Assembly: GCF_002155145.1 (NCBI RefSeq)
Contig: NZ_CP021323.1
Span: 2,790,001 to 2,854,000, forward strand
Reading direction: 5' to 3'
DNA from: Kushneria konosiri
GTDB lineage: Bacteria > Pseudomonadota > Gammaproteobacteria > Pseudomonadales > Halomonadaceae
DNA: 64,000 nt
Under the pieces are notes generated by a model, which saw only the letters and a program-made list of their open reading frames with translations, made no database searches and had not been told where the DNA came from. The position numbers and the translations under genes were made by a program. Positions 30,298-33,465 of this stretch are shown piece by piece; positions within the stretch are counted from its first letter, which is position 1; every line of letters starts with the position of its first letter.

Positions 30298-30894
30298 ATG
30301 CGGCGAATAATCATGAGTGGTCTGGTTTGTCTGGCTTTGGGGGGGTGTGCAGCGTCGCAGCCCGGTTCACAGGATGGAGCGAAGGACATGGCAATGCTTT
30401 CGCTTTCGACGGTCAAAGCGTCGAAAGCGAAAGCAGGAAGAAACCAGGGCCAGCCTCCCCGATATGACTACACGTCTTTCGAGGATGCCTATTCGGTCGA
30501 TGTAGAAGCGGCATTGATGGCTGAATATGATACCTGGCAGGGGACACCCTATCGATATGGTGGCGAAAGCAGTAATGGCATTGACTGTTCGGCACTGGTC
30601 CAGCAGATCTTTCGTGACAGCTTCAACTTTGATCTGCCGCGCACAACGGCAGGCCAGGTACTGACCGGGCGTCGTATCGAGAAAACGGCCCTCAAGGCCG
30701 GGGATCTGGTCTTTTTCCGACCATGGCGCGGTGACCGACACGTTGGCATTTATCTTGGCGATGGCCGCTTCATGCATGCTTCAAGCTCGAAAGGTGTCAG
30801 GATTTCCCGGCTGGATAACCCCTACTGGAGTCGCCATTACTGGCAGTCACGCCGAGCGCTTGAAGTTAATGCGCTTGCCATGCGAACCCCCTGA
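30298..30894 (+). CDS. NlpC/P60-family lipoprotein endopeptidase
   Basis: This 198-residue lipoprotein has the lipobox LALGGC, with lipidation at about Cys17. The C-terminal NlpC/P60 cysteine peptidase domain has the catalytic Cys in NGIDCSALVQ, His in DRHVGIYLGDG and a following His in FMHASSSKGV. Relatives (Spr/MepS, NlpC) cut peptide cross-links in peptidoglycan and act in the periplasm anchored to the outer membrane. Codons for about residues 33-46 form a perfect 16-bp inverted repeat. A strong terminator follows within 20 bases. Confidence 0.92.
   Translation: MRRIIMSGLVCLALGGCAASQPGSQDGAKDMAMLSLSTVKASKAKAGRNQGQPPRYDYTSFEDAYSVDVEAALMAEYDTWQGTPYRYGGESSNGIDCSALVQQIFRDSFNFDLPRTTAGQVLTGRRIEKTALKAGDLVFFRPWRGDRHVGIYLGDGRFMHASSSKGVRISRLDNPYWSRHYWQSRRALEVNALAMRTP
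30396..30434. repeat. Perfect 16-bp inverted repeat inside the NlpC/P60 gene
   Basis: Arms 30396-30411 and 30419-30434 are exact reverse complements with a 7-nt spacer. The right arm codes for alternating Lys/Ala/Ser residues in a low-complexity linker. In the mRNA it would form a strong hairpin about 100 bases after the start codon. Confidence 0.9.
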
Positions 30895-31061: not shown

Positions 31062-31090
31062 TTGTACAAAACATATAAATATATTATACA
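31062..31090 (+). promoter_or_regulatory. Sigma-70-like promoter upstream of the MTase-like gene
   Basis: TTGTAC (31062-31067) and TATACA (31085-31090) lie 17 bases apart in a strikingly AT-rich stretch, about 60 bases before the start at 31153. Confidence 0.6.
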
Positions 31091-31152: not shown

Positions 31153-31872
31153 ATGGATACCCAATATTCAGGGCTTTCGGCTCCTGCGGCTGATGTAATG
31201 CCGCCTTCAATGGCCTCGGCCGCCGTCGATGATGTACTTTCGACGCAATCCATTTGCAAGCGTTCGCACGGCCACGCCATATCACTGCTTGATATTGCGC
31301 CCCACCATCGCGTGCTCGATATGTATGGCTCCGGTCAGCAGCGCATGCATCTGATCGCCAGTAAACTGGACGAGCGTGGTGAACTGGTCGCCAATATCAT
31401 GGGAGCGCTGTCTCTGGAAGGTATCGAGCGCCGATATACCCCCAACAACGTCATCATGGCGCGTTTGAACGATCAACGGCTGTCCTCGGAAGAGGTAGGA
31501 GTCTTTGATCGTGTACTGCTTGATATCCCAGCACTGATTGGGCGCCATTTAACGCCACGTCAGCGTTCAGAGCGTTTGGTATCACTGCTGCTTCGTGCCA
31601 TTTCGCTTTGCCGGAATGGCGGGCGAGTGGTGTATATGACGCATGATCATCTGGCGCAAAACAATGAGATGGTGATTGACCAGGTGATAAACGATGCCCA
31701 CAAGGGCGTCGCGCTTCGCAATATCGTGCCCCCTCATGCGATCGGTAGCCCGGGCATGACCTTCTGTGGCGGCCAGCAGCTGGATCCAAGGATTGCAGGA
31801 ACTTTCCATATTGGTACCAAAGCGAGCAGTGACAAGCGCTTTCTGGCCGTTTTCGAGTGTGACTACAACTGA
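31153..31872 (+). CDS. RNA m5C methyltransferase-like protein (RsmB/RsmF/NSUN fold) lacking catalytic cysteines
   Basis: The 239 residues follow the NSUN/RsmF methyltransferase core in order. Motif I is RVLDMYGSGQQR in place of DLCAAPGGK, followed by GELVANI. Motif IV is DRVLLDIPAL in place of LLDAPCSG, then LCRNGGRVVYMTH in place of GG.LVYSTCS. A C-terminal FLAVFE strand closes the domain. Both cysteines needed for m5C chemistry and the glycine-rich SAM loop are altered, and the N-terminal and PUA-like parts of RsmF are absent. I read it as a pseudoenzyme or an RNA/SAM-binding protein, not an active methylase. The homology is inferred from motif order. Confidence 0.6.
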   Translation: MDTQYSGLSAPAADVMPPSMASAAVDDVLSTQSICKRSHGHAISLLDIAPHHRVLDMYGSGQQRMHLIASKLDERGELVANIMGALSLEGIERRYTPNNVIMARLNDQRLSSEEVGVFDRVLLDIPALIGRHLTPRQRSERLVSLLLRAISLCRNGGRVVYMTHDHLAQNNEMVIDQVINDAHKGVALRNIVPPHAIGSPGMTFCGGQQLDPRIAGTFHIGTKASSDKRFLAVFECDYN

Positions 31873-31944
31873 GCTGGTGTCAGCATCGACGCCACTTTCG
31901 ACCATCACTACAATGACGCCTCTTTTGCCTTCCCGGTACCGAGG

Positions 31945-32631
31945 ATGTCTTACCTGATCGTTCATCTGCGCCGCTCATGCCAATCCATTGGATCATGGGT
32001 GGCGTATCAGCTTATTGACCTGCGTGTATCACCGGCGGGGCTCGCACTGGCGGCCATCGCATCCGGGGTCGCCACACTGCCTGCACTTTATGCACATCAA
32101 ACGCTGCTGGCAGCGTTTTTTATCGCGCTGTATCGCCTCTTGAGCATTCTTTCGGGCCGGATTTCCAAAGCGATGGGGCACCTCGATATCAGGCAACGTT
32201 ATCTGCGCCCCTTCATGGAAATTATTCTGGTGCTGTCGGTCATGGGCGGACTGTCACTCTATCAACCCGAAAAATTTTTCCTGCCGGCGCTAGTGCTTTT
32301 AATCGTGACGCTCGTGTTTGATCTTGAACGACGATTGACTGCGCTGTTGCTGGAGGCTCAGGAGAGGGTTGCCAAAACCGGCAGGGTAGAACGCCTGATG
32401 GACGGAGTTACCGGTAGCCCGGGACGAACGATTCTTTTGATCGCTGCCTGTTATGAGCCAACATGGTTTTTCTGGAGTGCCCCGGGGTTTGCGGGGATCT
32501 GTCTGACGATATTGGTCTGGCGGCTGATTTCCAACTATCGCCAGTTGGGGATGCATTCAAGGGACTGGTTTTTTATTGAAGTCGAAACATCTGAACCTGG
32601 CGCATCGAGCGGGGCAGATTCTCAAGGTTAA
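31945..32631 (+). CDS. CDP-alcohol phosphatidyltransferase-like membrane protein lacking the catalytic Asp motif
   Basis: A 228-residue protein with five to six membrane helices. The N-terminal layout (SPAGLALAAIASGVATLPALY ... ALYRLLSILSGRISK ... FLPALVLLIVTLVFDLERR) resembles the YnjF-like CDP-alcohol phosphatidyltransferase group. The metal-binding pattern DxxDGxxAR(x8)GxxxDxxxD is replaced by LSILSGRISK...YLRPFME, so the essential aspartates are missing. GAGG lies almost against the ATG, so the exact start is uncertain. It is 72 bp after the MTase-like gene and likely cotranscribed with it. Function unknown. Confidence 0.5.
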   Translation: MSYLIVHLRRSCQSIGSWVAYQLIDLRVSPAGLALAAIASGVATLPALYAHQTLLAAFFIALYRLLSILSGRISKAMGHLDIRQRYLRPFMEIILVLSVMGGLSLYQPEKFFLPALVLLIVTLVFDLERRLTALLLEAQERVAKTGRVERLMDGVTGSPGRTILLIAACYEPTWFFWSAPGFAGICLTILVWRLISNYRQLGMHSRDWFFIEVETSEPGASSGADSQG

Positions 32632-32692: not shown

Positions 32693-33175
32693 TCAGTGCT
32701 GATGGCCGCCTTCGCCGTGCACGTGGCCGTGCTCGAGTTCTTCGGCGCTGGCTTCACGTACGGATTCAACGCTGACATCAAAGTTCAGGGTCTCGCCTGC
32801 GAGCGGATGGTTACCGTCAACAGTGACCGTGTCACCTTCAAGCTTGGTCACGGTGACCAGCAGCGGGCCGCCTTCGGTCTGTGCCTGGAACTGCATGCCC
32901 GGCTGAATGTCTTCAACGCCCTGGAAGGCATCACGCGGTACTTCCTGAACCAGAGAGGGCTGGACTTCGCCATAGCCTTCGCTGGGCTCAACGCGCGCCT
33001 GGAGAGTATCACCAGTGGATTTGCCTGCCAGTTCCTTTTCAAGGCCCGGAATAATGTTGCCGGAGCCGTGCAGATAGGAAAGCGGATCACGACCTTCAGA
33101 GCTGTCGAGGACTTCGCCAGCGTCGTTTTTCAGGGTGTAATGAAACGCTACTACCGTGTTCTCTGCGATCTGCAT
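32693..33175 (-). CDS. slyD: FKBP-type peptidyl-prolyl isomerase SlyD
   Basis: A 160-residue cytosolic PPIase-chaperone. The FKBP domain (LSYLHGSGNIIPGLEKEL, then NHPLAGETLNFDV) is interrupted by the IF chaperone insert (about residues 70-120). The tail HGHVHGEGGHQH is short and His-rich for nickel or zinc binding, though poorer in metal ligands than E. coli SlyD's. I chose the ATG at 33175 (MQIAENTVVAFHY) with AAGGA upstream. The frame is open further upstream to 33298 but without similarity. Roles include folding and hydrogenase nickel delivery in E. coli. Confidence 0.94.
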   Translation of the reverse strand: MQIAENTVVAFHYTLKNDAGEVLDSSEGRDPLSYLHGSGNIIPGLEKELAGKSTGDTLQARVEPSEGYGEVQPSLVQEVPRDAFQGVEDIQPGMQFQAQTEGGPLLVTVTKLEGDTVTVDGNHPLAGETLNFDVSVESVREASAEELEHGHVHGEGGHQH

Positions 33176-33465
33176 GATAAGGGTCCTTTTGCGTCGGTAC
33201 GTTTTAGGTTGCTCTGAAACTGTCGGGGGCATTGTCTCCATGGATGGCCTCCATGAATGCGTGCCGACGTGCTTGTTTACCAAGATGGCGACGGCCACAT
33301 GTTTTTCAACCCCGGGTGATCCATCAATTACGCTTTTTTTGCGATATCATGCCAACATGATGCTTGCCTGGATGCAGGGAGGCGTCATGACAGCCCGGCT
33401 GCACAGGCATTGTGCCCGGGGTCAAACCAAATTATAGATACTTAAATATTTGCGCAGGAGAGCTT

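Follow-up and report, generated by a model that had tools for sequence, protein, structure and literature searches.

A 64,000-nucleotide stretch of the Kushneria konosiri genome (contig NZ_CP021323.1, positions 2,790,001 to 2,854,000; referred to here as the window) contains an open reading frame whose product is, by sequence profiles and predicted fold, a diverged member of the RsmB/RsmF/NOP2 (NSUN) superfamily of m5C RNA methyltransferases. None of the eight Kushneria orthologues of this pseudo-methyltransferase has either catalytic cysteine, and the gene is under purifying selection, not decaying. We favor the reading that it encodes a non-catalytic binding protein, repurposed from a methyltransferase core, and give this a probability of about 60%. 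An RsmF-like m5C RNA methyltransferase, probably gained from outside the family, would have been cut down to its Rossmann core; the catalytic cysteines, the signature of the SAM loop, and the acid of motif II would have been lost, presumably once and before the species split; and the resulting protein, presumably non-catalytic, would be maintained by purifying selection, its remodelled core binding a protein or a small ligand, possibly a structured RNA, without performing any chemistry. The features of the locus are listed in Table 1.

Table 1. Features at the pseudo-methyltransferase locus, with positions counted from the first letter of the window.
Feature	Position	Strand	Remarks
NlpC/P60 family gene	30298..30894	+	constant upstream neighbor
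Hairpin and T-run after the NlpC/P60 gene	30913..30945	+	read from the sequence; separates NlpC/P60 from the pseudo-methyltransferase
Conserved AT-rich near-palindromic upstream element	31062..31090	+	TTGTACAA...TTRTAC; two TTGTACAA-like blocks
Possible leader hairpin, GGA in loop	31105..31125	+	two pairs changed on both sides among seven species
Pseudo-m5C RNA methyltransferase	31153..31872	+	239 aa; open frame, ATG start
Motif I	31309..31344	+	RVLDMYGSGQQR where relatives read RxLDxCAAPGGK
Motif II	31378..31398	+	GELVANI; acid of AND/ANE is Ile in 8/8 orthologues
Motif IV	31504..31536	+	FDRVLLDIPAL for FDRxLxDAPCS; Asp kept, Cys lost
Motif VI	31606..31647	+	LCRNGGRVVYMTHD for LCKxGGRIVYSTCT; nucleophilic Cys absent
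C-terminal strand region	31759..31860	+	TFCGGQQLDPRIAG...FLAVFEC, resembling W-x-G-x-x-L/F-D-x-x-L...GFFVAVLEK of intact relatives
Promoter-like site TCGACG-17-TACAAT	31886..31914	+	9/12 matches; between the two genes; 7/7 genomes
Degenerate CDP-alcohol phosphatidyltransferase-like membrane protein	31945..32631	+	228 aa; D-x2-D-G-x2-A-R...G-x3-D-x3-D lost
FKBP-type peptidyl-prolyl isomerase (SlyD-like)	32693..33298	-	downstream neighbor in 10/10 Kushneria genomes

A methyltransferase core and its altered motifs

The K. konosiri protein scores 29.4 bits against Pfam PF01189 (cut-off 27), and all eight Kushneria orthologues exceed this cut-off, those of G000 and G072 only when adjoining pieces of frame are added. 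Its NCBIfam matches are weak, namely 36.6 bits to Thermus RsmF (NF041567, cut-off 690) and 29.7 bits to the NOP2 family (cut-off 210), and both RsmF equivalogs are missed, NF008898 with 14.7 bits against 588. A profile made from the alignment of the eight orthologues (A1) matched intact RsmF-like enzymes, represented by an alignment of five RsmF-like relatives and E. coli RsmF, with a probability of 99.6% (E 4.5e-25, 192 columns) in a profile-profile comparison. Searched against PDB sequences, A1 found human and yeast NOP2 and Thermus RsmF as its first matches (E 1.3e-9, 1.3e-8, and 6e-6 respectively). The methyltransferase-like protein proposed by an earlier, sequence-only reading of this DNA is thus borne out above chance by both the family model and the profile match.

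An AlphaFold2 model of the protein (pLDDT 77.5, pTM 0.77) shows a class I methyltransferase fold, in which residues 1-10 and 12-35 have pLDDT below 50 and residues from about 36 to 239 form one methyltransferase core. Using VIA-align 2, this model was aligned with NOP2 (8esr_q, Z 23.4, rmsd 2.7 A over 198 residues), aTrm4 (3a4t_A, Z 21.0, 2.8 A over 192 residues), NSUN5 (2b9e, Z 20.5, 2.8 A over 193 residues), and RsmF (3m6u_B, Z 19.9, 3.0 A over 195 residues). The predicted fold is therefore Rossmann, and a non-Rossmann fold, named beforehand as the outcome that would speak against the assignment, did not arise. Genuine methyltransferases make up five of the 12 rows of the alignment on which the model was built, so the model may lean to their fold, and the sequence evidence weighs first.

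The motifs of the superfamily are recognizable in the right order, as the sequence-only reading had noted, with DIPAL (residues 124-128) and THD (residues 163-165) at the positions of DAPCS and TCT. Its further observations, that both key cysteines are gone and that the glycine-rich SAM loop is altered, extend to the orthologues: motifs IV and VI are without Cys in all eight, and the loop AAPGGKT reads GSGQQRM or similar, with the glycine-lysine signature of motif I lost. The acid of motif II, which holds the ribose of SAM, is replaced as well. In NSUN enzymes, cytosine is attacked by the Cys of motif VI, and the product is released by that of motif IV (PMC9561284, PMC6409601). The former nucleophile position is His in seven of the eight orthologues and Ser in one, and the former releasing position is Ala in six, Val in one, and Phe in one, while two residues, the Asp of motif IV and the Thr preceding the old nucleophile position, are kept in 8/8. 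Nor has a Cys moved into the motifs from elsewhere, the other outcome named as contrary to the claim: C153 is invariant among the orthologues and also occurs in several intact relatives that have both catalytic cysteines, and C205 is found in 6/8. From these replacements, we infer that the pseudo-methyltransferase has no enzymatic activity.

Of the SAM site, the predicted fold, the Asp in motif IV, and some of the glycine loop remain, and given these the protein may still bind SAM. A neofunctionalized enzyme, binding SAM or another nucleotide for a different chemistry, would be consistent with the retained Asp and Thr and with the His that most orthologues carry at the nucleophile position, but it would have to work without the acid of motif II (Ile in 8/8) and the glycine-lysine signature of motif I, with His or Ser as the old nucleophile and Ala, Val, or Phe at the motif IV Cys position, and we regard it as quite improbable. 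K. aurantia reads DTRF and TSS at the former catalytic positions where the other orthologues read DIPA or DIPV and THD or THG, so that these positions form no conserved new active site. This counts against the favored binding-protein reading too, as the functional part of the protein may lie outside the pocket. Since the replacing residues differ in this species, a single loss of the cysteines pre-dating the species split is itself something we infer.

Besides its catalytic residues, the Kushneria protein has lost about 14 residues after motif IV in comparison with intact relatives, as well as two parts present in the five aligned relatives, an N-terminal region (about 100 aa) and a C-terminal domain (about 165 aa). 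Two intact relatives (L154 and L161) likewise end directly after the core, so that a missing C-terminal domain is by itself hardly informative. These losses bear on an alternative in which the protein still binds rRNA or tRNA where an RsmF-type enzyme would, serving as an assembly factor or competitor that does not methylate. Its fold is that of RNA m5C enzymes with NOP2 among the best matches, the pI is 8.9 for residues 36-239 (6.8 for the whole 239-aa protein), and human NOP2 sets a precedent, since rRNA processing was rescued by its C513A mutant (PMC9561284). With the N-terminal region, the C-terminal domain, and the loop after motif IV gone, however, plain RNA binding becomes less certain, and we consider this alternative rather doubtful compared with the repurposed binding protein that we favor.

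Selection, distribution, and origin

Among the seven closer species, dN/dS of the pseudo-methyltransferase gene is 0.10-0.25 in all 21 pairs (Nei-Gojobori), and in the seven pairs with K. aurantia (G090) it is 0.26-0.39. In the wider pairs, where dS reaches 1.89, synonymous changes approach saturation; the least diverged pair by dS (G072 and G036, dS 0.45) gives a dN/dS of 0.18. Its evolution is faster than that of the NlpC/P60 and FKBP genes on either side (0.03-0.16 and 0.02-0.07 respectively, eight of 28 pairs each), and the second gene of the locus (31945-32631) has a dN/dS of 0.21-0.40 in 21 pairs. A slowly decaying, functionless relic could account for this faster evolution, for values reaching 0.39 with K. 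aurantia, and for two adjoining genes that both lack their catalytic residues, but the open frame is intact in 8/8 orthologues, dN/dS among the seven species is low, many polar residues are invariant across all eight species, and the upstream element is conserved, which makes a relic highly improbable. The view that the gene is kept and not decaying has thus held.

The pseudo-methyltransferase is conserved in relatives, being present at one fixed locus in eight of ten Kushneria genomes and in none of 141 other family genomes (the family being f1 in the genome collection used, which we take as Halomonadaceae). Searching 201 family genomes with A1 returned the same eight Kushneria genomes and, outside the genus, two weak partial matches, one of which (L059) is RsmB-like by sequence and tree, the other (L058) being nearest to RsmB yet under the RsmB cut-offs. 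Together with L107 of the same family genus (g5), L058 represents a second fast-evolving protein nearest RsmB, with the motifs DACAGTGGK and DVPCSG, a stem branch of 1.75 changes per column, and its cysteines kept. Named genome records yielded 11 loci, of which the six close ones are Kushneria and the five distant ones (23-29% identical) are ordinary relatives from other phyla. The eight pseudo-methyltransferases form one group in the protein tree (100/100). In a tree of RsmB from the ten Kushneria and four other genomes, the eight carriers likewise form one group (95/97), in which K. aurantia branches first; the two Kushneria genomes without the gene (G082 and G103) fall outside it, at a position among other genera that the tree leaves without resolution.

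The sequence-only reading had asked for a separate intact rsmB or rsmF, and the answer is divided. The RsmB of the same genome (L001) is intact, with DAPCSG and TCS in place and 530.6 bits against an NCBIfam cut-off of 375, and each of the ten Kushneria genomes also matches PF01189 strongly at another place (E 1.3e-53 or better), where DAPC is kept. RsmF, on the other hand, was found over the strict cut-off of equivalog NF008898 at no place in 61 family genomes. Below the cut-off, there is one place in 58 of the 61 genomes, which in G000 is RsmB, and there are two in G004, G028, and G056. Intact RsmF-like enzymes of other families miss NF008898 too (L145, L147, L150, and L151 are all under the RsmF equivalog cut-offs), which marks this cut-off as strict.

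Across 369 genomes of the class, A1 matched 45, its own included, at E 1e-5 or better, and the best matches after the window's own (5.5e-26 and weaker) were for the most part RsmF-like proteins, about 450-500 aa long, that have DAPCS and TCT. The pseudo-methyltransferases were placed among RsmF-like enzymes in a 37-row tree (support 80/94 and 81/89), and the RsmF-like grouping reached 99/99.8 in a 34-row tree without the long lone rows L047, L048, and L049. Duplication of the genome's own RsmB was rejected (clade with L001, p-AU 0.00013). A clade with all seven RsmB-type rows was not rejected (p-AU 0.165), and the RsmF-like origin therefore rests on the 99/99.8 support together with the profile match. 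By these sequence comparisons, the closest intact relatives are RsmF-like rather than RsmB-like and belong to other Gammaproteobacteria. Descent from an RsmF of the family was also rejected, as A1 saw no intact relative within the 201 family genomes versus 44 other genomes matched in the class; an intact cousin that escaped notice within the family is unlikely, though PF01189 matches at two or three sites in many of its genomes. A search of 201 genomes for the C-terminal domain of the relatives, run without a positive control, found nothing. With intact relatives seen only outside the family, the most likely origin is horizontal gain, and the pseudo-methyltransferase gene was probably acquired from elsewhere. 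Phages and plasmids were rejected as its source, with only weak matches in two of 50,697 phage records and four of 72,556 plasmid records, and no relative of the protein was found in viral contigs.

The locus and a second degenerate enzyme

Instead of an isolated gene, as the sequence-only reading had it, the pseudo-methyltransferase is followed on the same strand by a second ORF 72 bp downstream (71-85 bp in 7/7 genomes with both genes), which makes a two-gene transcript possible. Its description as free-standing is nevertheless retained in part: the gap holds a promoter-like site in 7/7 genomes, so that the second gene may start its own transcription. Sites with 9/12 matches are equally common in shuffles of the scanned region (two found, shuffle mean 2.2). 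The stretch around TACAAT is strongly conserved, and the spacing of the site is fixed in the seven Kushneria genomes.

The second protein corresponds in position to CDP-alcohol phosphatidyltransferases (PF01066), which carry the motif D-x2-D-G-x2-A-R-x8-G-x3-D-x3-D. It is 25-28% identical to those of G082, G103, and G009 and 18% identical to that of G007, all at the same locus, but it differs from them in having no motif aspartate at all, each being replaced in all seven Kushneria copies that adjoin the pseudo-methyltransferase. Thus, FDGLDGALAR...GRFLDTCLD of G082 corresponds to LSILSGRISK...QRYLRPFME in K. konosiri, and the sequence now standing there is in turn conserved (RQRYLRP in 7/7). 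Three of the degenerate copies were scanned for PF01066 without any match; the phosphatidyltransferases of G082 and G103 match it with 40.9 and 32.8 bits (cut-off 22). Six relatives from genomes without the pseudo-methyltransferase comprise L116-L119 with the full motif (4/4) and L115 (G103) and L142 (G007), in each of which one motif Asp is Glu, so that some motif drift also occurs in the absence of the pseudo-methyltransferase. A structure model of the second protein, made with the six-helix membrane fold of such enzymes in view, is of poor confidence (pLDDT 53.4).

The gene order of an outgroup genus (G009) is a DUF1266-like gene similar to that in the window, NlpC/P60, CDP-alcohol phosphatidyltransferase, and FKBP, and in G007 NlpC/P60 and the phosphatidyltransferase are together, followed by other genes. 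In seven Kushneria genomes the pseudo-methyltransferase fills the slot between NlpC/P60 and the phosphatidyltransferase-like gene; in G082 and G103 this slot is occupied by a major facilitator transporter (PF07690 in G082), which indicates that the gap has received different genes. The transporter lies at L140:914-2104, with its counterpart in L141. K. aurantia has the pseudo-methyltransferase, and the phosphatidyltransferase gene was not found there. Judging from this order of genes, the arrival of the pseudo-methyltransferase goes with the loss of the phosphatidyltransferase activity or gene, which amounts to one or two events on the tree and may be a coincidence.

A functional link between the pseudo-methyltransferase and its membrane neighbor, or a shared transcript, is possible, and the presence of the first gene only in K. 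aurantia means that such a link is not required. That the pair forms a new two-component module of two former enzymes, a soluble RNA-methyltransferase core and a membrane phosphatidyltransferase core, with a dedicated operator and a sensor or scaffold role at the membrane, we consider unlikely; the missing neighbor in K. aurantia and the possible promoter of the second gene both speak against an obligatory pair.

Upstream, the NlpC/P60 gene is followed by a hairpin with GGGCC...GGCCC arms that seven species share; this hairpin is absent from the terminator-scan output. A strong promoter had been proposed for the pseudo-methyltransferase gene. No sigma-70-like site with 9/12 matches was found upstream of it, and what stands in this region is the conserved AT-rich near-palindrome. 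A pattern written from the copies of this element themselves, searched with up to three mismatches in ten Kushneria genomes, occurs at one place per genome in seven of the ten, where it is kept in 7/7, the G050 copy matching on both strands; K. aurantia has a stretch that resembles it by eye. A regulon was rejected, as the same search gave no second place in the ten genomes. For the leader hairpin downstream of the element, two pair changes on both sides were reached in 274 of 500 shuffles, its covariation score in four of 500, and it is weak by energy (z -1.44). A second AGGA lies near the start codon, besides the GGA in the hairpin. CsrA-type control through this GGA hairpin is a conjecture.

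Comparison with known systems

Pseudoenzymes are known in other methyltransferase families. In the titles and abstract beginnings of the open-access literature, we found neither a report of a bacterial pseudo-m5C methyltransferase nor one of an RsmF-type protein that is dead, yet conserved throughout a bacterial clade, beside a dead neighbor. An m5C core kept without its chemistry or accessory regions is a natural test of what the core can do by itself, and Kushneria offers a comparison of carriers and non-carriers at one and the same locus. The adjoining enzyme, likewise dead, provides a concrete, testable partner hypothesis.

The RsmF-like enzymes L145-L147, L149-L151, and L153 (about 450-500 aa) share the methyltransferase core with the Kushneria protein over its whole length, including the ending W/C-x-G-x-x-L/F-D...L/I-R/H...FxAVLE. 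They differ from it in keeping DAPCS (DVPCS in L153), TCT, AAPGGK/NK, and AND/ANE, all of which the Kushneria protein lacks. The RsmB of the same genome belongs to the same Pfam family, and is the intact enzyme.

Thermus RsmF (3m6u-3m6w) is the best Foldseek match of the model (E 4.3e-12; VIA Z 18.6-19.9, rmsd 3.0-3.1 A, 195-205 residues). Unlike the Kushneria protein, it is active on 16S rRNA, has its catalytic cysteines, and carries additional domains. The top VIA matches, NOP2/NSUN1 and archaeal Trm4, act in eukaryotic ribosome assembly and on archaeal tRNA respectively. NOP2 keeps its catalytic cysteines, and human NOP2/NSUN1 has a role that does not depend on catalysis (PMC9561284).
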